From: Lachnospiraceae bacterium
GTDB taxonomy: Bacteria; Bacillota; Clostridia; Lachnospirales; Lachnospiraceae
Reading direction: 5' to 3'
DNA: 40,184 bases
Assembly: GCA_017620375.1 (NCBI GenBank)
Contig: JAFZQN010000150.1
Span: forward strand, 1-40,184
The position numbers and the translations under genes were made by a program. This document shows, one piece after another, positions 1,704 to 21,408 of this stretch. How positions within the stretch are numbered: the first letter of the stretch is position 1; the number at the start of each line of letters is the position of its first letter. The notes below the pieces were generated by a model that was not told the origin of the DNA, made no database searches, and worked only from the letters and a program-made list of their open reading frames with translations.

Positions 1704-1802
1704 TTTTTTGTCCCTTTTTTGGAGTTCATACGTTATATTATTATAGAGGGGGACATAGAGCTTTTTATGATCCTATCTAACAATATTGGTAGTGCACACC
1801 AA
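1704..1802 (+). promoter_or_regulatory. R1: ECF-like promoter plus structured leader, copy 1
   Basis: First of five near-identical elements. TGTCCC (1709-1714), 16 bp, CGTTAT (1731-1736) form an ECF-type promoter; an A/T tract precedes it. Transcription probably begins around 1743-1746, so the RNA starts in stem 1: TAGAGGGG (1744-1751) pairs with CCTATCTA, with CATA/TATG inside it. Stem 2 is TATTGGT (1784-1790) / ACCAATA (1798-1804) around the invariant loop AGTGCAC. It drives the helveticin-like gene. An alternative sigma-A reading (TTTTTG, 17 bp, TATTAT) cannot be excluded. Confidence 0.75.
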
Positions 1803-1843
1803 TAAAAATCAAAAATAATAATCGGCTTTTTGGAGGTATGAAT

Positions 1844-2989
1844 ATGAGTAAAATAACTGAATCAAATGAAATTATCCGGGAAAGAATAAAGGTAGACAGA
1901 GATGGTTTTGATAATCAGGAAGATTATAATAAGTATATAGAAGAACATCCTGAAGAAATGCCAATACCACAGGAAATGATAGAAATAAATGCAAATTATA
2001 ATATAAATGTTACTGCTACACCACTATATAAAATCGTGGACAACTTATCCGGGGCATGGACGAATGCGGTTCAAAAAACGTTTATTCTGGGAAGCGATAT
2101 TTATATTCTTCAGCGTAATGGGGCAAATATGAGACTTACAAGATGTCATATTTATTTAAATACTGCATCAGCTGTTGACCGTATGACATTAAATAATTTC
2201 GGGCATAGTCAGACACTGGATTTTATTGATTATGATAGTGAAGGTCATCCTCGTTTTATCATTGCTTGCAAAGCGGGTTCTACGGATTATAAGTGGTCTT
2301 TGAGGATAGGCAGAATAACTTACATTGCAGGAACTACTAAAAACGATACTGATATTCCGACGCTTTCCTCTATAGAGTATGCTAATATCGGGGGATCTTC
2401 TTTTGGAACATTATTAAGAGTAGATGCTGGACTTTCAACTAACAAATCAAGATTAGTTATATGGGCAAAAAGCAGTACCGGTAAAAATCAATATAGTGTT
2501 TATAACATGAGTCAGATTTCCTCAATATTTGATGCTAAAGAAACTGCTCCATCGGGAAGCAAAGATACACCTTGTACAAATTCATCAGTTCAAGCAGCTT
2601 TGTTGTCGAGTGTTATACAAAACGCAACGAATGTTATGTTACCCAATAATTCTTTTCAGGGATTAGATTTAAAAAATAATGATATAATCTTTATTGATGG
2701 AGGAAAGAGTACAGATATCCCGAAAGTTGGATATATTACAACCTATATTTTGTCTTCGGGGACTCTTTATATGACTTGGCTTTTTAATGCAACGGTAGTA
2801 GATAATGCGGGAGAATTGACTAGTTCAGGTGTTGAGATAGAATCCCCGCAAGTGATTGGAGATACCTTGTATTGTACCTTTTTCTTTAGCAATAAGACTG
2901 TTGCAAATGGAAGGTTTTATATATATACTATTCCTATATCAGCATTTTCTTTGCCAAATTCTGTTGCGGAGGGAAAAAATGAAGACTAA
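1844..2989 (+). CDS. helveticin J-like class III bacteriocin family protein
   Basis: A protein of 381 residues with no signal peptide or membrane segment. From memory its order of motifs parallels Lactobacillus helveticin J: GHSQTLDF (GHTQTWEF in helveticin), NDTDIPTLSSIEY, then SFQGLDLKNNDIIFIDGG (SIQGYDLDNDGNIYIS) and IESPQVIG (VESIQIIG). Helveticin J is a large heat-labile bacteriocin with a beta-propeller-like fold. The N-terminal ~50 residues are acidic and lie outside the similarity. Start chosen at 1844 (GGAGG seven bases upstream); the ATG at 1838 is too close to it. The 3' end overlaps the next gene by 11 bases, implying coupled translation. Bacteriocin activity is inference; no immunity gene is obvious unless it is the coupled gene. 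Confidence 0.65.
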   Translation: MSKITESNEIIRERIKVDRDGFDNQEDYNKYIEEHPEEMPIPQEMIEINANYNINVTATPLYKIVDNLSGAWTNAVQKTFILGSDIYILQRNGANMRLTRCHIYLNTASAVDRMTLNNFGHSQTLDFIDYDSEGHPRFIIACKAGSTDYKWSLRIGRITYIAGTTKNDTDIPTLSSIEYANIGGSSFGTLLRVDAGLSTNKSRLVIWAKSSTGKNQYSVYNMSQISSIFDAKETAPSGSKDTPCTNSSVQAALLSSVIQNATNVMLPNNSFQGLDLKNNDIIFIDGGKSTDIPKVGYITTYILSSGTLYMTWLFNATVVDNAGELTSSGVEIESPQVIGDTLYCTFFFSNKTVANGRFYIYTIPISAFSLPNSVAEGKNED

Positions 2990-4289
2990 GTATAGGCTTT
3001 TAGTCATAATTGGGACGATATTTTTATACTTCTGTATAAATAAGGGGATAGCAGTATATGCAAATCCGATAGAACCTGAAGGATGGACAGTATATAATAA
3101 GTCCATAAAAGAATGTGGAGATTTCCAATATTATATTCAGGAAAGTACAGGAAGAGCATATATTACAGGCTATCTTGGACAGGATGAGAGCCTTGTGATA
3201 CCGGATTGCCTAGATGGGATAATAGTTGAGGGTATTATTGATATGCATCGGAAAAACCCGATTAAGTCAATAACACTCGGAAAACACTTCGGAGAGATGT
3301 ATGCAACCGGAAAGTGTACAGCATCAGAGTTTGGAATAGAAGAACTTGAAACTATAAAGGTTTCAGAAAAGAATGAATATTATAAGGCGTACAAAGGCAT
3401 GCTTTTTAGTAAGGATAAGAAAACACTATATTATTGTCCTAACAGCATAAATGAAGATGAGGTTGTGATACCAGGGGGAGTTGTTGCTGTTTCGGATGGG
3501 GCATTTAATGATAATCTTACGATTAAAAAAATAGTCTTTTCTAAAAAAACAAAGATAGCAAGTTTGTATAACTGTTTTAACAACATGCCTGCTCTTGAAG
3601 AAGTGGTATTTTCAAAAAAAATTAAATTGTTATCAGGTTGTTTTAATTCATGTCCTAAACTGCAAAAAATCCTGTTTAAAACAGGAATCAAAAAGATATA
3701 TGGAAGTTTTTGTTTCCTGGATAGCCTGAATTTTGTAGAATTTTCGGAAAGTTTGGAATATATAGGGATGGATGAAGAGCCGGCATTTGTAGCATGTCCT
3801 TTGTTGAAAAGTGTGGTTATTCCCCCAAATATTAGATATATAAACGGAAATTCCTTTGATAAAGGGACTGTTATTAAGTGTCCTGACTATATAATAAAGG
3901 GGGCTTTACCCGGTGACAACGGTTCATACTATTCTGCATTAATAATTAATGGGGAAACAATAAACTATGATAGATTAAAAAAAATAGTTCAAGCAGATAA
4001 GTTTACAAAAATGAATATAGGAACTAAAAGAAAGCTTTCTCTTTGGGCAACATATGCGGATGCGTTTTTTGATGATGAATTAATCTATACCGGAAAAATG
4101 TTGTATGGGGTTGTAGACTCCCGAAGTCTTGACACAGAATTGATTAATTTTATATCTGATCATCCTGAGATAATTAAAGTGTCTGAATCCGGTGAATTAA
4201 CGGCGCTTTCAAAAGGAGCAGCAACGATTACTGTGAAACTGGGAACAAATAAAAAACTAAAACTTCAGTTTATGGTAACGGTGATTTAA
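2979..4289 (+). CDS. secreted BspA-type leucine-rich repeat protein with Ig-like tail
   Basis: A 436-residue protein with an N-terminal signal peptide (hydrophobic core LLVIIGTIFLYF, cleavage after about VYA). Residues ~60-300 contain irregular BspA-like repeats (LRR_5 type: VVIPGGVVAVSDGAF, LEEVVFSKKIKLLSGCF, LKSVVIPPNIRYINGNSF). The last ~90 residues resemble a bacterial Ig-like Big_2 domain (VSESGELTALSKGAATITV). Start at 2979 has GGAGGG six bases upstream, inside the end of the helveticin-like gene, so the two are translationally coupled. Surface binding is the known theme of the family; a role as partner or immunity factor for the bacteriocin-like protein is only suggested by coupling. 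The operon ends at the hairpin 4305-4373. Confidence 0.75.
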   Translation: MKTKYRLLVIIGTIFLYFCINKGIAVYANPIEPEGWTVYNKSIKECGDFQYYIQESTGRAYITGYLGQDESLVIPDCLDGIIVEGIIDMHRKNPIKSITLGKHFGEMYATGKCTASEFGIEELETIKVSEKNEYYKAYKGMLFSKDKKTLYYCPNSINEDEVVIPGGVVAVSDGAFNDNLTIKKIVFSKKTKIASLYNCFNNMPALEEVVFSKKIKLLSGCFNSCPKLQKILFKTGIKKIYGSFCFLDSLNFVEFSESLEYIGMDEEPAFVACPLLKSVVIPPNIRYINGNSFDKGTVIKCPDYIIKGALPGDNGSYYSALIINGETINYDRLKKIVQADKFTKMNIGTKRKLSLWATYADAFFDDELIYTGKMLYGVVDSRSLDTELINFISDHPEIIKVSESGELTALSKGAATITVKLGTNKKLKLQFMVTVI

Positions 4290-4304
4290 ATCATATAGTA
4301 ATAT

Positions 4305-4373
4305 TATGGAGTTGACACTAATACCCCTGCCGCTATTAATCAGGCGACAGGGGGTATTAGTGTCAACTCCATA
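4305..4373 (+). terminator. very long inverted repeat at the end of cassette 1
   Basis: The arms TATGGAGTTGACACTAATAC... and its complement pair over about 23 bp before one bulge, then continue in CTGCCGC/GCGACAG around a short loop. No good T run follows directly. The inner part (CCGC ... GCGAC with a C-A mismatch) matches the hairpins at 6593-6630 and 8157-8196. Probably the cassette terminator; the unusually long outer arms may be a separate repeat. Confidence 0.6.
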
Positions 4374-4450
4374 TGTTATAATTATTGTCAATAGCTCAAA
4401 ATATTACTCAAAAAAATGCTCAAAAAAATTTTCAAAAAAATTTTTTGAAT

Positions 4451-4550
4451 TTTTTTGTCCCTTTTTTGGAGTTCATACGTTATATTATTATAGAGGGGTA
4501 CATAGAGCTTTCTGTGATTCCCTCTGAAAAGGTTGGTAGTGCACACCAAA
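4451..4550 (+). promoter_or_regulatory. R2: ECF-like promoter plus structured leader, copy 2
   Basis: TGTCCC (4456-4461), 16 bp, CGTTAT (4478-4483). Here stem 1 is AGAGGG with CCCTCT, a perfect pairing where R3-R5 have a G-A mismatch; the inner pairing is CATA/TGTG. Stem 2 is TTGGT/ACCAA around AGTGCAC. It precedes the secreted C39-like peptidase gene by about 44 bases. An A/T stretch with its own weak inverted repeat lies just upstream (4420-4457). Confidence 0.75.
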
Positions 4551-4593
4551 ATGCTTAACATATAGTCATTGTATTAAAGAAAGGGGTCATATA

Positions 4594-5328
4594 ATGAAAA
4601 AGATATTAAGTGTTATATTGGTTATCATTATGTTGCTTTCAATGAGCGTTAACGTTTTTGCAGCAGAAAACAACATTGATACTGCGCAGGCAAATATTGG
4701 AAACAAGTTCGGTGGCGAAATGGTACTGACAGATCAGCAGAACGCGGAATATCTGGCAAGTCTGTCGGAAGATGAGTTGCAGAAGATAGCTGAAAAAGAG
4801 AATGTTGCTACTCAAGTTTTGAGAAACAAAAAGACAAGATCTGGTAGCCTGATTATTGTTCCTAATACATACACAATGTATCAGCAGGAAACTGACACCT
4901 ATTGTATTCCCGCGACTATCAAAAGCATTTTGATGTATATTAATGGCACTTCTCCTTCTCAGTCTACCATTGCTGCAACTACGGGAACTAATCCTACAAA
5001 TATTCCAGGCTATCTGAATGATCGCCAGAATGAGTGCTATTATATTTATACGGCGAAGAGTGAATTCAATCAGGATGGTATGTGTTCCAAGCTGTATTCT
5101 ACGATTTTTTTTAGCCATGTTCCGGTGTCTATGGGTATTTCCGGAACTACAACTTCTAATTGGTATTATGAGACCGCCGGTCATAGTTTGGCTGTGTTTG
5201 GAATTTATGATGACTATTCCTACATCAGATTTGGTGATCCTTTGGGTGATAGAGTTGCTGGCTGTCCGTATTTTTACACTAAGAGTGCAAGTTTGAGTTA
5301 TAGTGTTTGTACGAGAATTGTATGGTGA
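4594..5328 (+). CDS. secreted C39-like cysteine peptidase family protein
   Basis: A protein of 244 residues: signal peptide 1-23 (cleavage near VFA-A), a ~65-residue charged pro-like region, then a papain-fold domain of the Peptidase_C39_2 type. Candidate catalytic residues are Cys104 (ETDTYCIPATIKS), His197 (TAGHSLAV) and Asp215 (RFGDPLG). This fold is used by exported peptidases and by GG-peptide processing domains; here there is no attached ABC transporter, so it acts outside the cell. The ribosome site AAAGGGG precedes the ATG. The next gene starts 24 bases downstream. It might mature or degrade another secreted product of the regulon; that is inference. Confidence 0.75.
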   Translation: MKKILSVILVIIMLLSMSVNVFAAENNIDTAQANIGNKFGGEMVLTDQQNAEYLASLSEDELQKIAEKENVATQVLRNKKTRSGSLIIVPNTYTMYQQETDTYCIPATIKSILMYINGTSPSQSTIAATTGTNPTNIPGYLNDRQNECYYIYTAKSEFNQDGMCSKLYSTIFFSHVPVSMGISGTTTSNWYYETAGHSLAVFGIYDDYSYIRFGDPLGDRVAGCPYFYTKSASLSYSVCTRIVW

Positions 5329-5351
5329 TTATTCCAAAAGAGGAAAATGAT

Positions 5352-6584
5352 ATGAGCTATAATGCTAAAACATTATTCGTTGCTTGTGCGTTGATGTTTT
5401 CCTTAGGACTATATGGATGTTCGCAAAAAGTACCTGAAAATGATATATCATCGGAGCAAAGATTGATTCCGAATGAAATGATTTCCATATATGATGCAAA
5501 TGATAATCTTCTTGTCAACATTGAGCATTTTGGTTCTATTACTCAAACTGACAAGGGCTTTATTTATTCAAAATTGGCAACTGGTTCAAGTAGTGAAAAC
5601 TATGTGATGGATTACTTCTATTATAATTTTTCTACGAAGGAACATCAAAAATTAGGCACTATTGAAAAATGGGTGTATGAAGCGTCATATGATTCATTTT
5701 CATACAATAATCATGTGTATATGCTTATTACTACCGGTGATGACTATAACTTTGATGAAACAGAAAGTTATTTATATGACATCAATTTGACGGAGAAATC
5801 GATGAGTTCCCATTTGTTGGAAAATGCAGGGTCTCCGTACAATTCAATGTCACTTTTTAATGATAAAATATATATTGTTTCACCTGGAAGAGAATTATGT
5901 TATGTAAACAGTTATGATATTCAGACAGGGAGTTTAAAAGAAATACAAAAGTATACTTTCGATTCTGAAACAAATTCTGGTGAAACCATACGACATATTT
6001 CTGCCGATAAGGATTTTATATACTTATTACGCTTGCGCATGAGTAATGAAGCGGAAGCAATAGTGTATATAGATATTTTTGACTCGAAGTTTTCGTTGAT
6101 ACATTCTCTGGATGTTACAGATGATATTACTGCAAACACTTTAGCGTCTGAGAGTAAAAACAATGAAGCAAGACAACTTGTTTCGCACTTTGAAGTAAGC
6201 AATACTTTTGTTTATTATGAAAATTTCAGTATATCAAGGGCACTGTTTGAAATACCAAACATAAGATTAGAAAAATCTGATAATGTACAATCCAGGCAAA
6301 TATTTGAGGCAAGTCCTGACTTATACAAAGCCGTAAGTACTTCTTCAAATGATAATTTGAGCATTTTCTATGAGGCATATCATAATAAAATATTCATCTT
6401 GGATGCTGAAACGCTTACAATAAAAGAAAGTTCATTTTTCATTGAGGAGCCTAATTACTGTATTACATATATGACGCACAATTCTCAAGGAGATGTTTTA
6501 CTTTTCTTAGATTATATAAATGCCAACGCTTCAGAAACATTTCCGCGTAAAATTTATTGTGTTAACATTTCAGAGTTCGATTGA
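5352..6584 (+). CDS. putative lipoprotein, beta-propeller-like
   Basis: A protein of 410 residues. The N-terminus MSYNAKTLFVACALMFSLGL ends in a lipobox-like LYGC, with Cys23 as the likely lipidated residue. The rest is a series of beta-strand-rich segments of the form 'DKGFIY', 'NNHVYML', 'NDKIYIV', 'DKDFIYLL', suggesting a six- or seven-bladed propeller. Start chosen at 5352 (AGAGGA eight bases upstream); earlier ATGs overlap the previous gene and would bury the signal sequence. It is the second gene of cassette R2. No enzyme motif seen. A membrane-bound immunity or sensor partner of the secreted peptidase is possible but unproven. Confidence 0.65.
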   Translation: MSYNAKTLFVACALMFSLGLYGCSQKVPENDISSEQRLIPNEMISIYDANDNLLVNIEHFGSITQTDKGFIYSKLATGSSSENYVMDYFYYNFSTKEHQKLGTIEKWVYEASYDSFSYNNHVYMLITTGDDYNFDETESYLYDINLTEKSMSSHLLENAGSPYNSMSLFNDKIYIVSPGRELCYVNSYDIQTGSLKEIQKYTFDSETNSGETIRHISADKDFIYLLRLRMSNEAEAIVYIDIFDSKFSLIHSLDVTDDITANTLASESKNNEARQLVSHFEVSNTFVYYENFSISRALFEIPNIRLEKSDNVQSRQIFEASPDLYKAVSTSSNDNLSIFYEAYHNKIFILDAETLTIKESSFFIEEPNYCITYMTHNSQGDVLLFLDYINANASETFPRKIYCVNISEFD

Positions 6585-6592
6585 AGTATAGT

Positions 6593-6630
6593 AAAATCCC
6601 CGCCGCTTTGAATCAAGCGACGGGGATTTT
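6593..6630. terminator. bidirectional terminator, CCCCGCCGC family
   Basis: AAAATCCCCGCCGCTT pairs with AAGCGACGGGGATTTT around TGAATC. T runs on both strands let it serve the lipoprotein gene (plus) and the ATPase remnant (minus). A single internal C-A mismatch is shared with the hairpins at 4305 and 8157. Confidence 0.8.
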
Positions 6631-6635
6631 CAGTA

Positions 6636-7046
6636 TCAGAACCATCTCCGCGATATTTCCCCAAACCTCGGGAGCTTCAATGACATGTATCCGTAATTGT
6701 TTGCTTTGATTATCCCGCGCTTCTTAAGACGGTCCCTGTATACTGACATCTGTCCTGATGTCATACCGAGCTGTTCACGTATATCTGCGATTTTTTCATC
6801 TTCACCCGTAAAAAGGATCCTAATTATCTCTCTTTCTTTTGGCGATAGTTCACTCCATATTTTTTCATAGACATAACTTTCCAGGTACTCGTCATATTCA
6901 GGTAAAAGGTCATCTATACTTTTAGATAGTCCTTTTTTAATATTCTTGTCCCAGTAGATAAATCCCAGTGCCTGATAGGCAAATGCGTAACCTTTCGTCA
7001 ACTTGGCCATACGATTGGCATCGGCAGTTGAGATTTTTATAACTTG
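6636..7046 (-). pseudogene. 3' remnant of an AAA ATPase gene
   Basis: The open frame encodes only the C-terminal third of an ATPase of the same kind as the gene at 21721: LTKGYAFAYQALGFIYWD matches the family's post-AAA helix, and LSPKEREIIRILFTGEDEKIADIREQLGM with MSVYRDRLKKRGII is a winged-helix DNA-binding tail. The P-loop half is missing. The frame stays coding-like upstream of the first ATG (7010) to a stop at 7047-7049, with no ribosome site, and 10 bases further the R3 element begins. The missing half was evidently replaced by the R3 cassette or lost with its arrival. Confidence 0.7.
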
Positions 7047-7058
7047 TTATAACTTTTG

Positions 7059-7180
7059 TCAATAAATCTTTTTGTTAAAATTTTTTGTCCCTTTTTTGGA
7101 GTTCATACGTTATATTATTATAGAGGGGGACATAGAGCTTTCTGTGATCCCATCTAACAATGTTGGTAGTGCACGCCAAG
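7059..7180 (+). promoter_or_regulatory. R3: ECF-like promoter plus structured leader, copy 3
   Basis: TGTCCC (7086-7091), 16 bp, CGTTAT (7108-7113). Shares an extra upstream tract (TCAATAAATCTTTTTGTTAA) and downstream bases (CCAAGAC...TTAACT) with R5, so R3 and R5 are the closest pair. Stem 2 ends in GCCAA rather than ACCAA, keeping a U-G pair. It drives the gene at 7241. Confidence 0.75.
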
Positions 7181-7240
7181 ACTAATTAACTGTTTTATCA
7201 GAATTAATTAGTTGTATTATATTCACGAAAGGGGTATATT

Positions 7241-8059
7241 ATGTTCAAAACCCGAAAACGAAAACTATTTATTTTGTTGATTCTTGCTGTAGTTGTGGTC
7301 TGTGCCCTCACTTTTGTGGTGCAAAAAGCTTTAAAAGCATACGCAGCGGGCAAACCCATTCGGACTATAACATCGTTCTTAAAAGAAAAAAACATCGATT
7401 ATTCAGATGTAAGCATTAACAATGAAACACTATCTGTAAATCTGGTATCATCAGGAGATGGACGTTGTACGATCAATGATATTAAAGCGGTGCAGGCAAT
7501 TTATGAAGTTGTTCATGCTCAAACGATTGACAGTAAGGTTAAAAATGTAAGCATTGAAATCTACGATATCAATGGCAAAATGATTTTTGATCATCATGAA
7601 AATGGCGTGTCTGCTCAGGTTCAAAATGTTGATAAGCTTGTGAAACAAGACCCTGAGCAAAAGACAGATATGACAGTGGATGAGATATTATTATATGCTG
7701 AAAACCTTGTCGCTGAATATCCATATACCATTCAGGAGTCGAAAATTGATACTGCCTCAGAGATTTCAGGTAAAAAACTTGAATTAACGTTATGTACGCT
7801 TAATAAAAACGGTATACCTTCTTTTTCTAACATAAGAGCCATATATGATAGAATTGAAGCTTTTTCTTTTTCGACAAAAGCAATAACTCAGTGTGAGATA
7901 ACGGTAAACAAAATTGAGGGTGACTGCGTTTTTTATATGGCAGGAGATTTCCTTTATGGAGAATGTATTGCTTGGGTTAGTCCGGAAGCTCAAAGTTCTT
8001 TTGTGAAAGAATATGGACCGCCTGATGGATATGAATCTTCTGATGAGCAGCTTGACTGA
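7241..8059 (+). CDS. membrane-anchored or secreted protein with two related halves, unknown function
   Basis: A protein of 272 residues. A basic start (MFKTRKRK) is followed by a strong hydrophobic segment (9-28, LFILLILAVVVVCALTFVV) that is either an anchor or a signal peptide (AYA-AG near 34-37). The exported part appears to contain a duplicated alpha/beta module: residues ~40-120 (FLKEKNIDYSDVSINNETLS ... IKAVQAIYEVV ... VSIEIYDINGKMIF) and ~150-235 (LVAEYPYTIQESKID ... IRAIYDRIEAF ... CEITVNKIEGD). I do not recognise the family. GAAAGGGG precedes the ATG by 8 bases. It is the only gene of cassette R3. Confidence 0.6.
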   Translation: MFKTRKRKLFILLILAVVVVCALTFVVQKALKAYAAGKPIRTITSFLKEKNIDYSDVSINNETLSVNLVSSGDGRCTINDIKAVQAIYEVVHAQTIDSKVKNVSIEIYDINGKMIFDHHENGVSAQVQNVDKLVKQDPEQKTDMTVDEILLYAENLVAEYPYTIQESKIDTASEISGKKLELTLCTLNKNGIPSFSNIRAIYDRIEAFSFSTKAITQCEITVNKIEGDCVFYMAGDFLYGECIAWVSPEAQSSFVKEYGPPDGYESSDEQLD

Positions 8060-8156
8060 AATATTTTATTCCGGTGATGTTGTAAAGGAAGATATTGTAA
8101 TACTATGATAAACGATATGGATGAAAAACTATAGAAAAGAATGAGGTACGTTTGAC

Positions 8157-8196
8157 AACAATCCCCGCCGCTTTGGATTAAGCGACGGGGATTGTT
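8157..8196 (+). terminator. terminator, CCCCGCCGC family, end of cassette 3
   Basis: AACAATCCCCGCCGCTT pairs with AAGCGACGGGGATTGTT, with the same internal C-A mismatch as the other two cassette hairpins. It lies about 100 bases after the stop of the gene at 7241. The bases between (8060-8156) hold nothing I recognise. Confidence 0.7.
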
Positions 8197-8335
8197 TAAG
8201 ATTTAAAGAGTACCCCGTATTTTCGCTCCAGTCAAAAGTTATAGTATGTCCGTATATTTCTTCTGCAGCGTCAAGCTGTTCTTCAAAAGAGCGGCAGATG
8301 GTTTTGGCCTTAAACGGTTTGATGATTTCAAATAT
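8197..8335 (-). pseudogene. unrecognised gene remnant cut at R4
   Basis: On the minus strand a coding-like frame reads IFEIIKPFKAKTICRSFEEQ then LDAAEEIYGHTITFDWSENT. It has no start codon (a stop at 8336-8338 precedes it) and loses coding character in the hairpin at 8157-8196. The upstream side ends about 20 bases from the R4 element. I do not recognise the protein. As at 6636-7046, an opposing gene seems to have been cut where a cassette now begins. Confidence 0.4.
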
Positions 8336-8354
8336 TTAATTTAAAAAAATTTAA

Positions 8355-8457
8355 AAAATTTTTTGTCCCTTTTTTAGAGTTCATACGTTATATTATTATA
8401 GAGGGGTACATAAGGCTTTTTGTGATCCCATCTAACAATAATGGTAGTGCACACCAA
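8355..8457 (+). promoter_or_regulatory. R4: ECF-like promoter plus structured leader, before the sigma gene
   Basis: TGTCCC (8364-8369), 16 bp, CGTTAT (8386-8391). Leader stem 1 TAGAGGGG/CCCATCTA has the inner pairing CATA/TGTG with the loop variant AGGCTTTT (shared with R5). Stem 2 is shorter here (TGGT/ACCA). Since the downstream gene is an ECF sigma factor, this copy is the natural autoregulatory promoter. Confidence 0.75.
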
Positions 8458-8514
8458 AACAATTAATTGAAGTTGTTAGTCTTTAACGAAAAAGGAGATA
8501 TATAGAACAGACAG

Positions 8515-9114
8515 ATGAGCAGACAATCAGATGATACTCCGGATATCATGCTTGATGAACTGTATACTAAATATATAAAGTTGGTTGCGGAAATAGCGTT
8601 CAGCGTGCTTAAAGATCATGAGCTCGCCAAGGACGCTACTCAGTCAGCTTTTCTTTCTGTTACCCAAAATGTCTGGAAACTAAAGGATGTACCGGAAGAA
8701 AAAGTTAAAAACTATATCATAAAAGCAGCCCGAAACGCGGCGATTGATATATACCGTAATAATCGATACATCCATAAACATGAAGTACCAATTCCTGAAG
8801 AGGGAGATCCGGAAGATATTAATAACCATGCGCGTAAAGGGAAGTTACCTAATGGGCTGTATACAGAATCCTTTGAAGATGAAGTCTTAAGAGGACTTGA
8901 CAGGACGGTATTACTAAAAGCATTGGAGAAGCTGCCACCCAAGCATATGAAATATATCAGGGATCGTTATTATGAAAACATGACTATGCAGCAGGTAGCT
9001 GAGAAATATGGCATAACAGAAGATGCGGCAAAAAAGCGTGTCTATAGGGGCATAGAAAAGCTAAAGGGATTGTATAAAAAAGAAGGGAGATGTCAGAATG
9101 AAGGAAGAAACTGA
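8515..9114 (+). CDS. ECF-type RNA polymerase sigma factor
   Basis: A protein of 199 residues. Region 2 spans ~12-85 (DHELAKDATQSAFLSV, the usual Asp-x-x-Gln-x-x-Phe helix) and region 4 spans ~132-188 (LEKLPPKHMKYIRDRYYENM and a helix-turn-helix around QQVAEKYGITEDAAKKRVYR). A ~45-residue acidic linker separates them. It overlaps the anti-sigma gene by 17 bases. The GGAG (8494-8497) is 17 bases from the ATG, unusually far; in-frame stops upstream rule out an earlier start, so translation may be weak or dependent on leader folding. It is the likely reader of R1-R5, its own promoter included; that link is inference from position. Confidence 0.9.
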   Translation: MSRQSDDTPDIMLDELYTKYIKLVAEIAFSVLKDHELAKDATQSAFLSVTQNVWKLKDVPEEKVKNYIIKAARNAAIDIYRNNRYIHKHEVPIPEEGDPEDINNHARKGKLPNGLYTESFEDEVLRGLDRTVLLKALEKLPPKHMKYIRDRYYENMTMQQVAEKYGITEDAAKKRVYRGIEKLKGLYKKEGRCQNEGRN

Positions 9115-9841
9115 GAAAAAAATCGTTACAACAGATAGAGGGGGGGGTGAAATGACTGATAATTCGAGGCCGGATTTAAAGGAAGTATTAAAAGTATATT
9201 ATGGAGAACCCGACCTAACCCCGGAAGAATCTAAAGAAGTTGAGCAGATGATATCAGAAGTAAAGGCATCAGGCTTTTTAGAAAAGTGTCATGAGATTTG
9301 CAAAAAGAAAGAAAAGAAGTATTGGTACATTGGAAAAATGGCCGTGAACAAAGCTGCCTGCCTTATAGGTGCTGTATGTTGCATTTTACTACTGTGTGGA
9401 TTTACGGTTTATTCTGTATATATCAAAAACCTTCACATGGAAAACAAGGGTGACCATGAAGAGATAGGATATACCCTTGATAAAAACGCTGATGTTAAAA
9501 GTCCTAAACGAATCGAAGTGTATTATGATCCTGCCTGGATACCGGAAGGATACCATCTTGAATCTGTCAATAAACAGGAAAAGGAATATACAATTATTTT
9601 TAGTTCCGATTCGGAAGAAGATGATTTCAATATATATTATATTCAAAGTCTACCGGGATTGAAACATCATTTAAGTACTGAAAACGGAAACCACGAAGCG
9701 GTTTCTTTTGGAAGATATTATGGAAAGTATGTTGATACAGACGACAGTAATTTTTTGATAGTGACCGATGGAATATATGTATATATTTTAATATCAGATG
9801 AAAATATCAATAAAGAAGACCTGATACGAATGTTGTATTAA
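9098..9841 (+). CDS. membrane anti-sigma factor, DUF4367-like
   Basis: A protein of 247 residues: cytoplasmic N-terminal part (1-80), one membrane segment (~86-107, ACLIGAVCCILLLCGFTVYS), and an outer domain with the DUF4367 signature (VYYDPAWIPEGYHLESV ... EYTIIFSSDSEED ... IYYIQSL). Such proteins hold the cognate ECF sigma at the membrane until a signal arrives. GGGAG lies 8 bases before the ATG at 9098. A second start at 9152, just after a run of eight G (9140-9147) that could itself act as ribosome site, would give MTDNSRPDL and leave the domains intact. The gene overlaps the sigma gene and is followed at 33 bases by a secreted protein gene. Confidence 0.8.
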   Translation: MKEETEKKIVTTDRGGGEMTDNSRPDLKEVLKVYYGEPDLTPEESKEVEQMISEVKASGFLEKCHEICKKKEKKYWYIGKMAVNKAACLIGAVCCILLLCGFTVYSVYIKNLHMENKGDHEEIGYTLDKNADVKSPKRIEVYYDPAWIPEGYHLESVNKQEKEYTIIFSSDSEEDDFNIYYIQSLPGLKHHLSTENGNHEAVSFGRYYGKYVDTDDSNFLIVTDGIYVYILISDENINKEDLIRMLY

Positions 9842-9873
9842 AAAAGTAAAAAGAAAAGAGGAAGAAGATTGTT

Positions 9874-10287
9874 ATGAAGAGAAAAATGTGGAAATCTGTA
9901 GTTGTGTTAGTTTGTATGATTATGTTTTTTCCCATATTGGAGTCAGGTAAAGAAATAAAAGCGGAAGAGTTACGATATCAATATGTTAATAATGCGGAGT
10001 GCTCGATTTCAATCACTTCCGTAACAGCAACTATTACATCAAACGTATATGGGAAAAGTGGAACAACATCGACCAGTGTTACCGTGTATCTTGAAAGCTA
10101 TTATAATGGAGAATGGCATTCCTATAATTCCTGGACACATACCGGAGGTAAAAATCAGGAAAATACGGATACTACGACGGTAGGGGTTGGGATATACAGA
10201 GTACGTATGTCCGTCACCGCGACATCGGGTGGAAATTCGGAATCTTTTAATGTAGATGGAAATATGACATGGTGTTTAGGTAATTAG
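9874..10287 (+). CDS. small secreted beta-sandwich-like protein
   Basis: A protein of 137 residues with a signal peptide (1-30, cleavage near IKA-EE). The mature part is rich in Ser/Thr and alternating strands (ISITSVTATITSNVYG, TSVTVYLESYYNGEW, GVGIYRVRMSVTATSG) and contains two Cys (in NAECS and TWCLG) that could form a disulfide joining the two ends. It resembles small secreted lachnospiral proteins of the DUF6147 kind, from memory. Third gene of the sigma operon. It could be the regulon's product or a ligand sensed by the anti-sigma; neither is shown. Confidence 0.65.
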   Translation: MKRKMWKSVVVLVCMIMFFPILESGKEIKAEELRYQYVNNAECSISITSVTATITSNVYGKSGTTSTSVTVYLESYYNGEWHSYNSWTHTGGKNQENTDTTTVGVGIYRVRMSVTATSGGNSESFNVDGNMTWCLGN

Positions 10288-10314
10288 TATGGGTAGCCAT
10301 CACTCGTAAAAGAC

Positions 10315-10437
10315 TCAATAAATCTTTTTGTTAAAATTTTTGTCCCTTTTTTAGAGTTCATACGTTATATTATTATAGAGGGGTACATAAGGCTTTTTAT
10401 GATCCCATCTAACAATGTTGGTAGTGCACGCCAAGAC
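10315..10437 (+). promoter_or_regulatory. R5: ECF-like promoter plus structured leader, copy 5
   Basis: TGTCCC (10341-10346), 16 bp, CGTTAT (10363-10368). Nearly identical to R3 including flanks; has the CATA/TATG inner pairing, AGGCTTTT loop and GCCAA in stem 2. It lies directly after the sigma operon with no hairpin between, so read-through from R4 into the transporter genes is possible. Confidence 0.75.
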
Positions 10438-10480
10438 GGGTTAACTAAGAATTATTGTTTATAATTAAGGAGATTTGTAA

Positions 10481-10879
10481 ATGAATACTATAAAAATAAA
10501 ACTAGTCATTATTGTTTTTCTTGGATTAGCAGTAATGTCAACATCGGTGGCTGCAAAAGCTACTGATCTTGGAAATAGACCGGTACCGGATAATTTTGGG
10601 CCAATGTATAAGAATACTTCTGATAACCACAGTACTTTGTTTGTAGGAGATATATCTTTATATGACACATTAAAAGCGCACATGACAGCGTATCTAGCTC
10701 CTGCGGGATATCTACAATTTACCCCTTCGGTTGAATTCACGGAAAACGATTATAAAAATTTAGTATACGGAGACGGATTACCCGCATATGTAGGACAAGC
10801 GGTTAAACTGGTGTTGTCAAAAACGTATTCTTGGTATAATGATTACGTAGTAGATATATATGATTGGAATTATAGGTAA
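10481..10879 (+). CDS. small secreted protein, possible transported or sensed product
   Basis: A protein of 132 residues with a signal peptide (core LVIIVFLGLAVMS, cleavage near AKA at ~27). The mature part has no Cys and ends in an aromatic-rich tail (YSWYNDYVVDIYDWNYR). It is the first gene behind R5 and lies just before an ABC ATPase and a large permease. That layout (small secreted protein, ATPase, multi-spanning permease) recalls lactococcin 972-type loci, but the sequence does not match that bacteriocin as I remember it. Product or substrate status is inference. Confidence 0.6.
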   Translation: MNTIKIKLVIIVFLGLAVMSTSVAAKATDLGNRPVPDNFGPMYKNTSDNHSTLFVGDISLYDTLKAHMTAYLAPAGYLQFTPSVEFTENDYKNLVYGDGLPAYVGQAVKLVLSKTYSWYNDYVVDIYDWNYR

Positions 10880-10938
10880 TTGCATTTTTATCCCGGGTGG
10901 GGTTTAAGTCCTGCCTGGGATATTTTGGAGAAAAAAAG

Positions 10939-11607
10939 ATGTTGATCGAGTTGACAAAAATCAGTAAAAGATACGGCAGTGGTGAAACAGAAGTTGAGGC
11001 ATTAAAAGATATAGATCTTAGGGTAAATAAAAAGGAATTTGTCGCTGTTATGGGAAAGAGCGGGTGCGGGAAAACAACGCTCATTAACATACTGGGGACT
11101 ATAATAAAGCCTGATACCGGTCGTTATATGTTTGACGGGAACGATATCACTAAATATTCTGAAAAAAAACTTGCAACTCTAAAAAGAAGCAGTATATCGA
11201 TTGTATTTCAGAGCTTTAATCTTGTTGATGAACTTGATATAAAGAATAACATAATACTCCCGTTTATATTTGATAAAAAAGAATATGATAAGGACTACCT
11301 TGAGAGTATAATTAAAGATCTTGAGATAAAAGATATCTTAAATAAATACCCGGACGAAGTATCCGGAGGAGAAAAGCAACGTGTTGCAATTGCAAGGGCT
11401 CTTTTGGTTAAACCCCAATTGATACTGGCCGATGAACCTACGGGTAATCTTGATAGTGAAAATTCTGAAAAAGTTGTTCGACTTCTTAAGAAATGCGTGG
11501 ATGATTACGGAAGTACGGTTATTATGGTCACGCATGATATTGATATGACAGAGTTGGCAGATAGGATACTCGAGATGAGCGACGGGAAGATGATAAAGGG
11601 TGAGTAG
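10939..11607 (+). CDS. ABC transporter ATP-binding protein, MacB/LolD type
   Basis: A protein of 222 residues with all ABC motifs: Walker A GKSGCGKT (39-46), Q-loop Gln91 (FQSFNL), signature VSGGEKQ (141-147), Walker B LILADEPTGNLD (161-172) and switch His199. The DEPTGNLD wording is typical of ATPases that pair with FtsX/MacB permeases and drive mechanotransmission rather than classic import. Start chosen at 10939 (GGAG 8 bases upstream); an upstream in-frame ATG at 10897 lacks a site. The permease start follows the stop by one base. Confidence 0.9.
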   Translation: MLIELTKISKRYGSGETEVEALKDIDLRVNKKEFVAVMGKSGCGKTTLINILGTIIKPDTGRYMFDGNDITKYSEKKLATLKRSSISIVFQSFNLVDELDIKNNIILPFIFDKKEYDKDYLESIIKDLEIKDILNKYPDEVSGGEKQRVAIARALLVKPQLILADEPTGNLDSENSEKVVRLLKKCVDDYGSTVIMVTHDIDMTELADRILEMSDGKMIKGE

Positions 11608-11608
11608 T

Positions 11609-14146
11609 ATGCTGAAACTTGCATTGAAGCTTATAAAAAAGAAAAGAAAAAAATACCGTGTTACCTTTTTATGCATAGTAGCATGTGCTTTTTTTATTGC
11701 CGTTATTGAAGGAATATATATGGGACACCACGCAGCAACTTTTGACGAGGCATATTATTATGCAGGGAAATATGATGTTGCAGCATATGTTGATCCTGAG
11801 ATATTGGCTAGTTATAACTTCTATAGTGAAAAAGGCAGTTTGACAGCGATCAATGAAGTGACCTATTCGGTAAGACAGGATAAAATACCGGATAATACTA
11901 TGTCAGAAGCCCAGAAAAGCTATATGGAATACAATTATATGAGTTTGATGGGCATAAGGGATGCCAGTGATGTCATCCAAACCTATGACTTAAGTGAGGG
12001 CAGGTGGCCTGAAAACACGGATGAATTAGTTGTATCGCTGAACTTCGTACTGGAGGATGGACGATCTGTAAGAAATGGAACCGTAAAGATAGGAGATACA
12101 GTAAGTATTCAATATGGAATAAGGAAAAATGAAGTAGGAGAAAGCCTGCAAGGTGAAATTACCGGTCCTGAAACTTTTGAAGTTGCCGGAGAAAAGGAAT
12201 TCCGGATATGTGGTATCTTTTCATATAAAAAGCTGCTATCCGGGCAACATATATGTTATGGATACTATAAATACGGTGCTTTGGAGCCAAAGGAAACTGC
12301 ACTGTACTATGTATTAAATGAAGAAAATTATGATGAACTTAAATCATTTGAAAAAAACCTTAGGGAGTATGGCTTTCAAAAAGTGGAAGCTAACGGGCAT
12401 ATAGAAACAGCTTTGAAATCTTTACAGTCTTCTGATTATATAAGCTCTATTGAAGACGGTATGTTTATCCTTGAAGCTATATTGATAGCTGTGGCTATGG
12501 GCATAATCGCAGTAAATCAATATCAGAATATACTTGAAGATTCTGAACAGATACGACTTTTTAGAAGGCTTGGAGCCGAAAGAAAGCATATCTATTTTTT
12601 GTATCTGACCCCGGGTGTAGTTTTTATTATTGTAGGGTTTGTGACAGCCTTTATTATTTCCGGGATGTTTCTAAAAGCATATGGAACGGTACTGTTAAAC
12701 AATTTATTTTCCTATGGGTATGCGCCGGATTACTTTAAGGTTGATCTGATAATGTATCTTATATCCTTTGGATTTATCCTTTTGGAATCGTTTTGTTTGA
12801 TATTGACGGTAGTAAAAAAAGAACTACGTATATATGAGGATGGACAGCAAGGGAGAAAAAGGAAAAAACAGGAGCAGATCAAGAACCTGTTTGGATTAGC
12901 CAGAGTCCTGAACAAAGGATTTTCTATAAGGAGGGTAGCTAAGACGACTATTGTTGTATTTGCTCTGACTATTATCCCGATATGTTTTATGACAGGTATT
13001 TCGGTGTATAGAGGAGCTGAAGAGCTGATTGTTGAGGGCGAGGTTGATTTCGTACTGAATTTAAGCGGAACAAATGTCTTTGCCGGAGAAGAAGAATTAC
13101 GAAATATTGGCGGGATTAAAAGTATAGAGAGATTTGCTAAGGCGGCATCTATAAAATTACCATTATCCAGGGAGGTGCTTGGAGAAGAAGTTTATCGAGA
13201 AATGAAGAGTAAGCCATGGTATACGGAATTATTTAATGAAGACGATGAATTAATCTGGGTGGTAGAAATAATATTCCCGGATGAAAAATCATATAATAAA
13301 TTTTATCATGATCAATATACTGGCTGTTTCCCTGAATATGACGAGTATATTAAAAGTGATAGTGTGATCATCAGTGTAAACTATTGTTTTGGTGAAGACG
13401 GAAGTGTGGTTGACATCGGAAAGAAGATAGCAGAACAGTACGGTGTGGTTAAGTTGCACTCGTTTGTCGATAATGATAAATCGGTAGAATTGAGTGTAAG
13501 TTCATCATATCTTGATAAACACAAAGAGTCTGATGGGGTATTTGCAACCATTATAGCTCCGCCGGGACTGTTTGATGAGTTTTTTTCCGGAGCGGAGTAT
13601 CATCATATGGTGCAATACGCAGTAAATGCGGAGCCCGGAAGTTATGAGGAGTTGAGCAGGGAATTAAAGGATTTCGCTTTTCATAATAATATGGCTATAA
13701 TGGATTATTATGATGCAAACAAAGAACATCGCAACTATCTTATTGTAAGGGTCACTTCATTGATAACAAGCTTTTTGATTGTCTTGATAGTATGTTTTAT
13801 AGTTCTATATTCAGTTAACGCACTTGAAAGGATCAGCAAGAGAAAACAGTACACGATATTTAGCCTACTGGGCATAAAGAAAAGTTCATCTGTTTTGTTA
13901 CGGGGATATGAGGATGCTATATATATCATAGACGGCTTGATCATAGCGCTGGTATTTCATATCATATCGGCAAATACATTTTTAGAAGGATTATATTTAT
14001 ATTATGGGTTACGTTTAAATCTGATATTTCTGTCTGCGGTTATCTGCCTTTTAATATATACAGGCCTGTTTTTCCTTTTTTCTGCACTTCCCTCTGTATC
14101 CGGTTCCAGACATGTTTTTTATCGGCACTCCAGAGGGGAGCTATGA
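11609..14146 (+). CDS. FtsX/MacB-type ABC permease
   Basis: A protein of 845 residues with the layout of two FtsX-like halves: a first membrane helix (~16-38), a large outer domain (~40-280), three helices (~285-400), a second N-terminal helix (~440-460), another outer domain (~465-700), and three to four helices to the end. Together with the preceding ATPase it would form a mechanotransmission-type exporter or an antimicrobial-peptide detoxifier. The ATG at 11609 has GGG eight bases upstream; GTG at 11600 would overlap the ATPase. Its last 107 bases overlap the convergent radical SAM gene, so the C-terminal tail after the last helix may be secondary. Confidence 0.85.
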   Translation: MLKLALKLIKKKRKKYRVTFLCIVACAFFIAVIEGIYMGHHAATFDEAYYYAGKYDVAAYVDPEILASYNFYSEKGSLTAINEVTYSVRQDKIPDNTMSEAQKSYMEYNYMSLMGIRDASDVIQTYDLSEGRWPENTDELVVSLNFVLEDGRSVRNGTVKIGDTVSIQYGIRKNEVGESLQGEITGPETFEVAGEKEFRICGIFSYKKLLSGQHICYGYYKYGALEPKETALYYVLNEENYDELKSFEKNLREYGFQKVEANGHIETALKSLQSSDYISSIEDGMFILEAILIAVAMGIIAVNQYQNILEDSEQIRLFRRLGAERKHIYFLYLTPGVVFIIVGFVTAFIISGMFLKAYGTVLLNNLFSYGYAPDYFKVDLIMYLISFGFILLESFCLILTVVKKELRIYEDGQQGRKRKKQEQIKNLFGLARVLNKGFSIRRVAKTTIVVFALTIIPICFMTGISVYRGAEELIVEGEVDFVLNLSGTNVFAGEEELRNIGGIKSIERFAKAASIKLPLSREVLGEEVYREMKSKPWYTELFNEDDELIWVVEIIFPDEKSYNKFYHDQYTGCFPEYDEYIKSDSVIISVNYCFGEDGSVVDIGKKIAEQYGVVKLHSFVDNDKSVELSVSSSYLDKHKESDGVFATIIAPPGLFDEFFSGAEYHHMVQYAVNAEPGSYEELSRELKDFAFHNNMAIMDYYDANKEHRNYLIVRVTSLITSFLIVLIVCFIVLYSVNALERISKRKQYTIFSLLGIKKSSSVLLRGYEDAIYIIDGLIIALVFHIISANTFLEGLYLYYGLRLNLIFLSAVICLLIYTGLFFLFSALPSVSGSRHVFYRHSRGEL

Positions 14147-14945
14147 GCAGCTTTTTGTCACCGTCACCGGTTAGGCGGTGGATGACTACATCATCCGGGA
14201 TGACGGAGATACATTTCTTTAACAAAGAGATATATTCATCTTCAGTGAGGGGCGTGACACGCCCCTCGTTGTATTCTTTCTCGAGGTCGGTGTCTTTCAG
14301 GATATGCAGCAGCTGGAGCTTGATGCCGGTGGCACCGTGAGCACATACATATTTTACGGTATCAACCATATCCTCTGTGCTTTCGCCGGGGAGGCCGAGG
14401 ATTACATGGGTAATGACTTCCAGGTTCCTTTCGCGAAGCTTTCTAACGGCTTCATCATATACCGGGAGGGCGTAGCCTCGCCTTATGTATTCTGCCGTCT
14501 TTTCATGGATGGTCTGTAGGCCGAGCTCCACCCATACGGGTTTTATCTTATTACATTTGTCTAACAGTGCAAGTACATCATCCGAAAGGCAGTCGGGTCT
14601 TGTGGCAACCGACATAGCCACAATATCGGGATGGTTGATAGCTTCTAAGTACTGTTTCTCCAGGCGCTCTATCGGTGCATATGTTCCGGTAAAGGCCTGA
14701 AAGTAGGCTATATATTTTCCATCTTTAATCTTGCCGGCTACACGCTGTTTCCCGCGTTCTATCTGCTCGGTTATGCTGAGAGCAGGTGCCTCCGCAAACT
14801 CACCGCTGCCCCCTTTTGAGCAGAATATGCACCCGCGCGTATCTAAGGTCCCGTCCCTGTTGGGGCAGGTGAATCCGCCGTTTAAGGCGATTTTATATAC
14901 CTTGCAGCCAAAGGTTTTCTTTAGGTAATCATTAAGCAGTGTCAT
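14040..14945 (-). CDS. radical SAM protein, YhcC/YtqA family (TIGR01212)
   Basis: A protein of 301 residues, full length for the family. The cluster-binding cysteines are Cys27, Cys39 and Cys42 (CPNRDG ... GCIFC), the spacing typical of YhcC/YtqA rather than plain CxxxCxxC. Further family marks: YFQAFTGTYAP, VATRPDCLSDD, WVELGLQTIHE, HVILGLPGES and HRLTGDGDKKLLIAPLWS. Function of the family is not settled; it resembles Elp3-like radical SAM enzymes. A TTGACA (minus, 15011-15016) may be its -35. Its 3' end overlaps the permease gene tail-to-tail by 107 bases, marking the edge of the accessory region. Confidence 0.9.
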   Translation of the reverse strand: MTLLNDYLKKTFGCKVYKIALNGGFTCPNRDGTLDTRGCIFCSKGGSGEFAEAPALSITEQIERGKQRVAGKIKDGKYIAYFQAFTGTYAPIERLEKQYLEAINHPDIVAMSVATRPDCLSDDVLALLDKCNKIKPVWVELGLQTIHEKTAEYIRRGYALPVYDEAVRKLRERNLEVITHVILGLPGESTEDMVDTVKYVCAHGATGIKLQLLHILKDTDLEKEYNEGRVTPLTEDEYISLLKKCISVIPDDVVIHRLTGDGDKKLLIAPLWSADKKHVWNRIQREVQKKGKTGLYILKGR

Positions 14946-15045
14946 GTGGGTGCTCCTTAAATAAGGCTCTTTTTTCTTATATACATTGTTTTAAAATAAA
15001 ATTAAAATATTGTCAAGAAAAGTCAGGAGAATTATCAGATTTTTG

Positions 15046-15074
15046 TTGACACCGTTCCCCTAAAGTGGTATTAT
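15046..15074 (+). promoter_or_regulatory. sigma-A promoter of the helicase gene
   Basis: TTGACA (15046-15051), 17-bp spacer, TATTAT (15069-15074), 40 bases before the start codon. The 169-base gap also holds the divergent radical SAM promoter. Confidence 0.75.
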
Positions 15075-15114
15075 AAATCTCTCACAACTTAAAACTATAC
15101 CAGGAGGAAACTGC

Positions 15115-18513: not shown

Positions 18514-18521
18514 CTGAAAAC

Positions 18522-18548
18522 CCCTCTGTCCCTTCCCGGGACAGAGGG
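18522..18548. terminator. shared terminator between convergent genes
   Basis: CCCTCTGTCCC pairs with GGGACAGAGGG around TTCCC, between the helicase (plus) and the M56 gene (minus). The arm resembles the hairpin at 22887, a recurring local terminator type. Confidence 0.75.
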
Positions 18549-18554
18549 ATTATA

Positions 18555-21041: not shown

Positions 21042-21042
21042 T

Positions 21043-21408
21043 TTATACTCCTGTTCTTAAGTTGTCTATCATAGCTTGAAGTTCTTCTATATCCTTATCC
21101 GACAATTTTCCTTTTCTGATGAAGGCTGCCAGGAAATCAGGACTTGAGCCGTCAAATTTATTTGCCAACAGTTCTTCAACTTCAGCTTCCTGGGCTTCTT
21201 TTTCCTTTACGAGCGATGTCACTGTAGAGTTCTCGTTTTTAATGACGCCTCTCTCCGACAGACGTTTTATAACGGTATATGTGGTAGAATTCTTCCAGCC
21301 CAACTCCTCCGCACAAAGCTTGGAAAGTGCTCCGCTCTTTATGGGTTCGTGCTTCCATACGAGCTTACAAAAGCGATATTCACTTTCAAATATCTTAGGT
21401 GTTTCCAT
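21043..21408 (-). CDS. BlaI/MecI/CopY-family repressor
   Basis: A protein of 121 residues: winged-helix DNA-binding domain (~5-75; ESEYRFCKLVWKHEPIKSGA, LGWKNSTTYTVIKRLSERGV) and a C-terminal dimerisation helix region (EVEELLANKFDGSSPDFLAAF). GGAG lies 10 bases before the ATG. It should bind the palindromes at 21423-21496 and repress this operon until the M56 partner cleaves it. Confidence 0.9.
   Translation of the reverse strand: METPKIFESEYRFCKLVWKHEPIKSGALSKLCAEELGWKNSTTYTVIKRLSERGVIKNENSTVTSLVKEKEAQEAEVEELLANKFDGSSPDFLAAFIRKGKLSDKDIEELQAMIDNLRTGV

Follow-up and report, generated by a model that had tools for sequence, protein, structure and literature searches.

Five near-identical promoter–leader elements around an ECF sigma factor gene of a Lachnospiraceae bacterium: a probable local sigma regulon with a candidate common 5′ mRNA element

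Group V sigma factors of the TcdR/UviA type, which serve toxin and bacteriocin genes of clostridia, are small sigma factors whose few target promoters resemble one another, belong to genes for secreted products and lie close to the sigma gene; these systems are not known to have a membrane anti-sigma factor of the type described below, or a shared leader. Loci of the plantaricin (pln) type hold several bacteriocin operons behind near-identical regulated promoters, controlled by response regulators and a peptide pheromone. Here we describe a locus of a Lachnospiraceae bacterium, contained in a 40,184-nt stretch of contig JAFZQN010000150.1 (‘the window’ is this whole stretch), in which five near-identical elements (e1–e5), each a promoter followed by a predicted structured 5′ leader, head five gene units, one of them the operon of an extracytoplasmic function (ECF) sigma factor (8515–9114, plus strand). 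The locus resembles the TcdR/UviA systems in having a handful of like promoters, ahead of genes for secreted products, close to the gene of a small sigma factor, and the pln loci in its several operons with near-identical promoters, but has an ECF sigma factor where those have response regulators and a pheromone. On balance we read it as an ECF sigma regulon that is local and amplifies itself, and in which promoter and structured 5′ leader were copied as one piece, five times over, the leader acting as a common mRNA element.

Autoregulated ECF sigma factors with small target sets have been described (PMC8103513), and the window locus is a regulon of this known kind, an ECF sigma factor with a DUF4367 anti-sigma factor, in which the local promoter array is unusual. 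The product of 8515–9114 has the two-domain make-up of group IV (ECF) sigma factors, with Sigma70_r2 (38.3 bits) and Sigma70_r4 (43.9 bits) above the Pfam cut-offs and no other sigma regions, and scores 93.2 bits against TIGR02937 (cut-off 42.9). The overlapping gene 9098–9841 (plus strand), with a DUF4367 match (43.3 bits, cut-off 22.1) and one hydrophobic segment by eye, probably encodes the membrane anti-sigma factor of the adjacent sigma factor, so that this arrangement too matches autoregulated group IV systems with a membrane anti-sigma factor. As in the definition given in PMC8103513, the sigma gene has a promoter of its own and a small target set: e4 lies directly 5′ of the gene, and the same motif heads the operon of its orthologue in a genome of the same genus. 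The −10 sequence is CGTTAT in all five elements and thus contains the CGT of ECF promoters, but the −35 sequence is TGTCCC in all five and not of the classical AAC type; ECF membership stands nonetheless, because the later definition, as that account gives it, is restricted to domain make-up alone. What further distinguishes the locus from such systems is the presence of five near-identical promoters within 9 kb, with a common structured leader.

A 43-base core (TGTCCCTTTTTTNGAGTTCATACGTTATATTATTATAGAGGGG) occurs in five exact copies in the window, all on the plus strand, and in none of 100 dinucleotide shuffles. From the −35 (starting at 1709, 4456, 7086, 8364 and 10341 in e1–e5) to the CCAA closing the second leader hairpin, the copies align over 93 bases with zero indels; one of 42 columns varies in the promoter (41/42 agree) and 14 of 51 in the leader (37/51 agree). 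The flanks are near random (35 of 45 columns vary in the 45 bases upstream and 34 of 40 in the 40 bases after the leader); e3 and e5 have about 27 upstream bases in common (z 4.8). In e1 the ECF-type promoter (1709–1750) comprises TGTCCC at 1709–1714, CGTTAT at 1731–1736 and AGAGGG from 1745, and the leader (1743–1802) has two predicted hairpins, at 1744–1779 and 1786–1802. The corresponding promoters and predicted two-hairpin leaders, likewise on the plus strand, lie at 4456–4497 and 4490–4549 (e2), 7086–7127 and 7120–7179 (e3), 8364–8405 and 8398–8457 (e4), and 10341–10382 and 10375–10434 (e5), with 41, 44, 61, 57 and 46 nt between leader end and start codon (in e1 measured to the ATG at 1844). 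A first-pass annotation of this DNA had described five near-identical elements in one orientation with a TGTCCC-N16-CGTTAT motif, and both the description and the N16 spacer are borne out; its distance of 40–60 bases before a start codon is roughly right, and of the likeness that it saw from an A/T tract through to the hairpin, the promoter and leader part holds, whereas the A/T tract is only loosely common to the elements.

The promoter motif follows the sigma clade across species. In G007, a Lachnospiraceae metagenome-assembled genome (MAG) of the same genus from goat omasum (JAFRSU010000091.1), the sigma orthologue is 71% identical, and one such promoter heads an operon whose genes encode a membrane protein, the sigma factor, an anti-sigma factor and a secreted protein. 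A strict pattern (TGTCCCTTTTN12CGTTATN8AGAGGG, up to two mismatches) gave eight matches in 24 congener genomes and none in a reversed-pattern control; this set, and a family set of 397 genomes used below, both include the window's own genome (G000). Six of the matches are in G000 (the five elements and one on contig C71), one is at the G007 orthologue operon, and one, in G004, lies 5.7 kb before a sigma gene of the same clade on the same contig. By eye, a motif variant is found within 0.2 kb upstream of 11 of 14 sigma-clade genes, some variants departing from CGTTAT or TGTCCC (for example L043, L044, L046 and L049); among the same 14, L040 (the G007 locus) and L047 have the motif at the operon head and L048 has none that is clear. 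Six of the loci encode sigma factors at least 43% identical to that of the window, all in Lachnospiraceae MAGs and four from ruminant stomach (goat, sheep and, twice, water buffalo), the most likely origin of the window as well; five further sigma matches, 24–27% identical, were excluded from the comparison. Because the orthologue operon has it, the strict pattern finds it in congeners at a control of zero, and sigma-clade loci carry variants of it, TGTCCC-N16-CGTTAT is most likely the promoter of 8515–9114, and, judging from sequence, all five units are very probably driven by this one sigma factor, as the first-pass annotation had proposed. That annotation had named elements lying mostly away from the sigma gene as grounds for refutation, and the check came out in favour of its reading: all five full elements are in the sigma locus, and the match on C71 is a promoter only. 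In most sigma-clade loci a third conserved block, AGAGGG or something close to it, lies 7–9 bases after the −10; it probably marks where transcription starts, and where the 5′ untranslated region (5′UTR) is short it could double as a ribosome site.

Looser searches carry less information. At up to one mismatch TGTCCC-N16-CGTTAT gave 13 matches in the window's own genome against seven in the reversed control, and is therefore too loose to define a regulon; exact matches number seven, namely the five elements, C71 and C86:8602. A three-part motif with up to four mismatches gave 31 matches in 14 sources (the window and L040–L052) against 6–14 in five shuffles, so that single weak matches mean little; of the window's nine, two are the elements read on the reverse strand, and the search misses the L050 promoters, whose spacer is longer. 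The C71 promoter (C71:44416, equivalent to L052:16417) precedes genes for a BlaI-type repressor (83.5 bits) and an M56 peptidase (124.5 bits), and is possibly a distant regulon member. By eye, this BlaI/M56 pair also has a TTGACA-type promoter sequence.

The sibling ECF loci of the genus (L041–L051) share the sigma clade, and DUF4367 (tested in L043) or an anti-sigma-like open reading frame (ORF) follows the sigma gene. Extra promoter copies recur there as well: five of ten other loci queried (L047 and L048 excluded) hold copies with 32–42 of 42 bases alike, shuffled controls giving none, and the strict pattern search added L049 as a sixth, the copies standing mostly before secreted-protein and ATP-binding cassette (ABC) genes. 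Of the seven extra copies, five stand before a homologue of the protein encoded first after e1 (the unit-1 protein) or before small secreted protein/ABC-exporter genes. In L049, L050 (L050:156) and L051 a gene for a small secreted protein comes next and ABC genes lie farther downstream, and the L045 copy is followed by an FtsX permease and an ABC ATPase (the ABC and FtsX assignments are Pfam-confirmed); L043:7498 is followed by the unit-1 homologue (39% identity over 193 residues, no Helveticin_J match), the L046 copy by a 230-aa protein and L043:3912 by a truncated sigma of 99 aa. Both L043:3912 and L050:156 keep the start of the sigma gene 3′ of the copied promoter, and the source of the copy was there therefore the sigma promoter itself. 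In L043 the copies form repeats of about 103 nt, each with a stem-loop and an ECF promoter (3861–3963, 7447–7549 and 10344–10446, the outer two 87% and 90% identical to the middle one), which precede, in order, the truncated sigma, the unit-1 homologue and the intact sigma gene. The sibling loci differ from the window in that the sigma 5′UTRs examined there are short (10–65 nt after the promoter block), and in that their promoter copies mostly diverge soon after AGAGGG and give no leader match.

Promoter copies are thus known from relatives, and the leader is new to the searches made. A leader model (R2) recovered the five own copies among the 24 congeners (E ≤ 3.1e-19) and, with the best 150 first-look candidates scored per genome, nothing convincing in the other 23 (eight matches in six genomes, E 0.08–0.97, taken as noise). 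In the 396 other family genomes it gave 11 matches in 11 genomes (E 0.0105–0.078, 20–24 bits), taken as noise without inspection of the loci; filters were stricter here, with 13 candidates scored per genome, so that weak relatives can be lost. A model of promoter plus leader (R1) was discarded because RNAalifold paired promoter with leader bases. A gapped exact leader pattern had no match in a species-level genome collection or in viral contigs, where near-own records may be absent and diverged leaders would be missed, and e3 as a query had none in plasmids and phages; other strains of this species are scarce in, or absent from, the collections searched. Within the own genome, the hairpin-2 pattern at up to one mismatch gave the five copies and no sixth (control 0). 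Rfam gave no family over the leaders, a T-box elsewhere being the only match in the whole window to pass its gathering score, and relaxed thresholds on the e1 and e5 leaders gave sub-threshold matches only; a limited literature search found no description of such a leader. The remark in the first-pass annotation that no described system has this make-up is too strong for the promoter, in view of the known autoregulated ECF sigma factors with small target sets and the several local arrays in the genus.

Each 69-nt leader is predicted to form two hairpins, with fold z-scores of −2.75, −2.02, −1.67, −1.84 and −2.14 in e1–e5 against +1.24 for the corresponding G007 stretch. The leader is retained in all five elements while the sequence on either side of the element is near random. 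Of all cells, 97% are paired in the named structure and 43–52% once it is slid; the structure was drawn from the same five sequences, which favours it. Paired sites show ten distinct substitutions, eight of which leave a standard pair intact (P = 0.00005, 0.0008, 0.005 and 0.02 for transition weights of 1, 2, 4 and 8, and 0.016 with substitution types kept). Hairpin 2 presents a self-complementary GUGCAC loop, whose six-base duplex is predicted at −7.9 kcal/mol, and the 11-mer TGGTAGTGCAC is invariant in all five leaders. CsrA-type binding to the leader was considered and dropped, no GGA loop being seen by eye.

We consider it most likely that the leader is a 5′ mRNA element common to the regulon. 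By analogy with its family, the DUF4367 membrane protein would hold the sigma factor until an envelope signal releases it; the sigma factor would then transcribe its own operon and the four neighbouring units from the TGTCCC-N16-CGTTAT promoters, a step that the comparison with relatives supports. Each mRNA is predicted to start at or near AUAGAGGGG (near 1743 and its equivalents; the 5′ end is placed from the −10 position), with hairpin 1 about one base from the 5′ end, followed by hairpin 2 with its GUGCAC loop. In the weakest step, the leader would act in cis, most simply as a 5′-terminal stem-loop shielding the transcripts from RppH/RNase J decay, with the consequence that induced messages would last alike. 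The leader of Bacillus subtilis aprE is reportedly such a 5′-terminal stem-loop stabilizer; the window leaders resemble it in the stem-loop predicted at the presumed 5′ end, and differ in a second hairpin with a palindromic loop and in being common to five transcripts. By the account in PMC3997798, RppH of B. subtilis requires a minimum of two unpaired nucleotides at the 5′ end, with a preference for three or more, and a G as the second base. The shield step draws support from these requirements, because the presumed start, with one unpaired base and U second, misses them. If the leader does work as an RNA element, the targets of this sigma factor would share both a promoter and a post-transcriptional handle, and whether the 5′UTRs of a regulon co-evolve as well would become a testable question.

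Several observations weigh against this reading. Covariation falls short of significance (in 168 of 500 column shuffles the pairing is as high as observed), only one pair changes on both sides across the five leaders, and the pair-keeping P becomes 0.09 at practically infinite transition weight, that is, with transitions only. Folding the whole UTR with the start region gives z-scores of −0.64, −2.68, −1.88, −0.82 and −1.36 for e1–e5 (G007 +0.94), and the fold signal is therefore weak in e1 and e4. The C71 promoter is of the same type and has no leader, the leader is found in one genome only, which makes its age and selection hard to measure, and a start 2–3 nt further upstream would weaken the RppH argument.

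The main rival explanation accepts the ECF promoters and takes the leader to be functionless, copied along with the promoter, its copies remaining similar through recent duplication and gene conversion; we regard this as a real possibility, though the less probable one. Copied promoters in relatives do bring along remnants from downstream of the original (the 99-aa truncated sigma at L043:3912 and the sigma start region at L050:156), the covariation control fits such passengers, and the five copies are mosaic-like, 16 of 28 informative column pairs being incompatible with one tree without repeated change, a pattern which, like the common upstream flank of e3 and e5, fits exchange between copies. 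Mere passengers would not, however, readily explain why similarity among the five copies stops at roughly a common base past hairpin 2, or why stem changes mostly keep pairing. Of six other copy pairs compared, four lose their similarity within some 50 bases of the −35 start; in L050 it extends over about 70 bases and in L043:3912 over all 120. Moreover, the sequence 3′ of the e3 leader resembles the G007 5′UTR (0 of 500 shuffles reach the score), whereas the five leaders do not (97–968 of 1000 shuffles; taken over the first 55 nt, 97, 821, 411, 774 and 708 of 1000 for e1–e5).

With the leader read as an mRNA element, the array would have grown by duplication of the promoter–leader segment with exchange between copies, and the comparison with G007 gives some idea of how. 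The two loci match over 7227–18574 in several blocks (7227–8029 at 94%, 8515–10107 at 79%, 14089–14956, 15021–17687 and 17804–18574). The e3 promoter stands ahead of the same gene as the single G007 promoter (L040:8656); upstream of it the two loci differ, with units 1 and 2 in the window and, in G007, a helix-turn-helix (HTH) gene and a HipA_C-like gene (22.2 bits; the cut-off, 30.5, is not reached). Window 8234–8320, just before e4, is 77% identical to part of that HipA_C-like gene, and of the five elements e4 matches the G007 promoter over the greatest length (65 bases, 86%); both findings fit a promoter region that was duplicated in tandem, with loss afterwards. Beside e3, a short ORF at 6636–7010 with winged-helix-type matches below cut-off is possibly a remnant, like 8234–8320 beside e4. 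A left flank in common with G007 was considered and dropped, since the match at 180–247 is inverted and that at 223–251 is a 29-base hairpin; synteny with G007 is therefore shown only for 7227–18574. The locus thus suggests how a sigma regulon grows, from one promoter and one operon in G007 to five promoter–leader units here, and, on the strength of one locus and a same-genus comparison, a mode of growth in which a sigma promoter is copied in front of other genes.

Less well placed, and in our view unlikely, is a leader that is a regulated RNA, either a sensor resembling a riboswitch or a target bound by a small RNA or protein as a means of tuning the regulon. The invariant 11-mer, the self-complementary loop and the pairing of the start region in the folds of e2 and e3 would suit it; that pairing is not found in all five folds, however, and the leaders have neither an Rfam match nor a called terminator, nor is there a sixth hairpin-2 motif in the genome. 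One form of it, more doubtful still, would be a new regulatory RNA marking all transcripts of one sigma regulon, in which the GUGCAC loops pair the mRNAs mutually or with a common partner so that they are stabilized or translated as a group. If true, this loop pairing would add an RNA layer to sigma control. A DNA operator, with a repressor or activator bound around GTGCAC in all five units, seems improbable: the 11-mer with its six-base palindrome does stand at a fixed distance from the promoter, but the wider inverted repeat is, by eye, off-centre for DNA symmetry, and the largely kept pairing of hairpin 1 would be needless for an operator. It is slightly less probable again that another sigma factor drives the elements. 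Other ECF genes do exist in the genome, for example a second one in the window (23614–24117) and a paralogue on contig C40; the former, however, encodes a sigma factor 25% identical to that of 8515–9114 and has no such promoter upstream, the latter has a variant of its own upstream (TGTCCAAAA...CGTTAT), and the 71% identical orthologue in G007 has the window-type promoter. The second ECF region of the window (23614–25375) comprises the sigma gene and a 421-aa partner ORF. Finally, a small mobile element carrying the promoter, which five dispersed copies with sharp edges might bring to mind, was rejected as scarcely credible, as the copies have no terminal inverted repeats by eye and one orientation only, and no leader copy is found elsewhere in the genome.

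The genes downstream of the five elements, all on the plus strand, are varied. Unit 1 encodes a helveticin-J-like protein (1844–2989) and a BspA-type LRR_5 protein (2979–4289; LRR_5 above cut-off, Ig-like below). Unit 2 encodes a C39-like peptidase (4594–5328, with a signal-peptide-like start by eye) and a lipoprotein-like protein by eye, of no confident family (5352–6584), and unit 3 a membrane-anchored protein by eye (7241–8059), 94% identical to G007 in DNA over 807 aligned bases. GC-rich stem-loops follow these three units (4322–4355, terminator-like by eye; 6595–6628; 8160–8193), none of them called by a terminator scan. One of the five units, in a small correction to the first-pass annotation, is the sigma operon, which comprises the sigma gene (sigma-70 regions 2 and 4), the probable anti-sigma gene and a gene for a small secreted protein of about 140 aa (9874–10287). 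Unit 5 encodes a small secreted protein of no family (10481–10879, signal-peptide-like start by eye), an ABC transporter ATPase (10939–11607) and an FtsX-like ABC permease (11609–14146).

The earlier labels of ECF sigma, C39-like peptidase and ABC/FtsX exporter are above the Pfam cut-offs; the helveticin label is not, the unit-1 protein scoring 23 bits against PF17312 (Helveticin_J; cut-off 25.5), and its homologues L071 and L043:7618 have no PF17312 match. Neither a Protein Data Bank (PDB) sequence match nor a PADLOC match was found for this protein, and the bacteriocin-like arsenal proposed in the first-pass annotation thus finds little footing; a further small correction is that no signal peptide is seen by eye in the unit-1 product, unlike in its 49% identical paralogue on contig C123. 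‘Envelope or secretion regulon’ is a fair description of the products, and a bacteriocin label for the locus is weak. Directly upstream of e1, on the minus strand, lies an AAA_14 ATPase gene (367–1611) with PADLOC PDC-S01 matches of up to 90 bits.

Sibling loci point to the secreted protein of about 140 aa (9874–10287) as a possible partner of the anti-sigma factor. It recurs after the anti-sigma gene in six of the 12 other sigma loci examined, and in truncated form in G007. On contig C23 of G007 (L042), a 238-aa ORF after a minus-strand promoter at 3051 joins such a protein, 38% identical to that of the window, to an anti-sigma-like N-terminus and a transmembrane segment; the fusion has no DUF4367 match. 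This recurrence in sibling loci and the fusion to an anti-sigma-like part in L042 suggest that the protein may belong to the sensor and act there alongside the anti-sigma factor. Elsewhere in the window there are two genes for M56 (BlaR1-like) peptidases, at 18555–21408, adjoining a BlaI-type repressor, and at 32462–33625, and the T-box leader mentioned above (25423–25655, 129.9 bits) lies 5′ of a tyrosyl-type tRNA synthetase gene.

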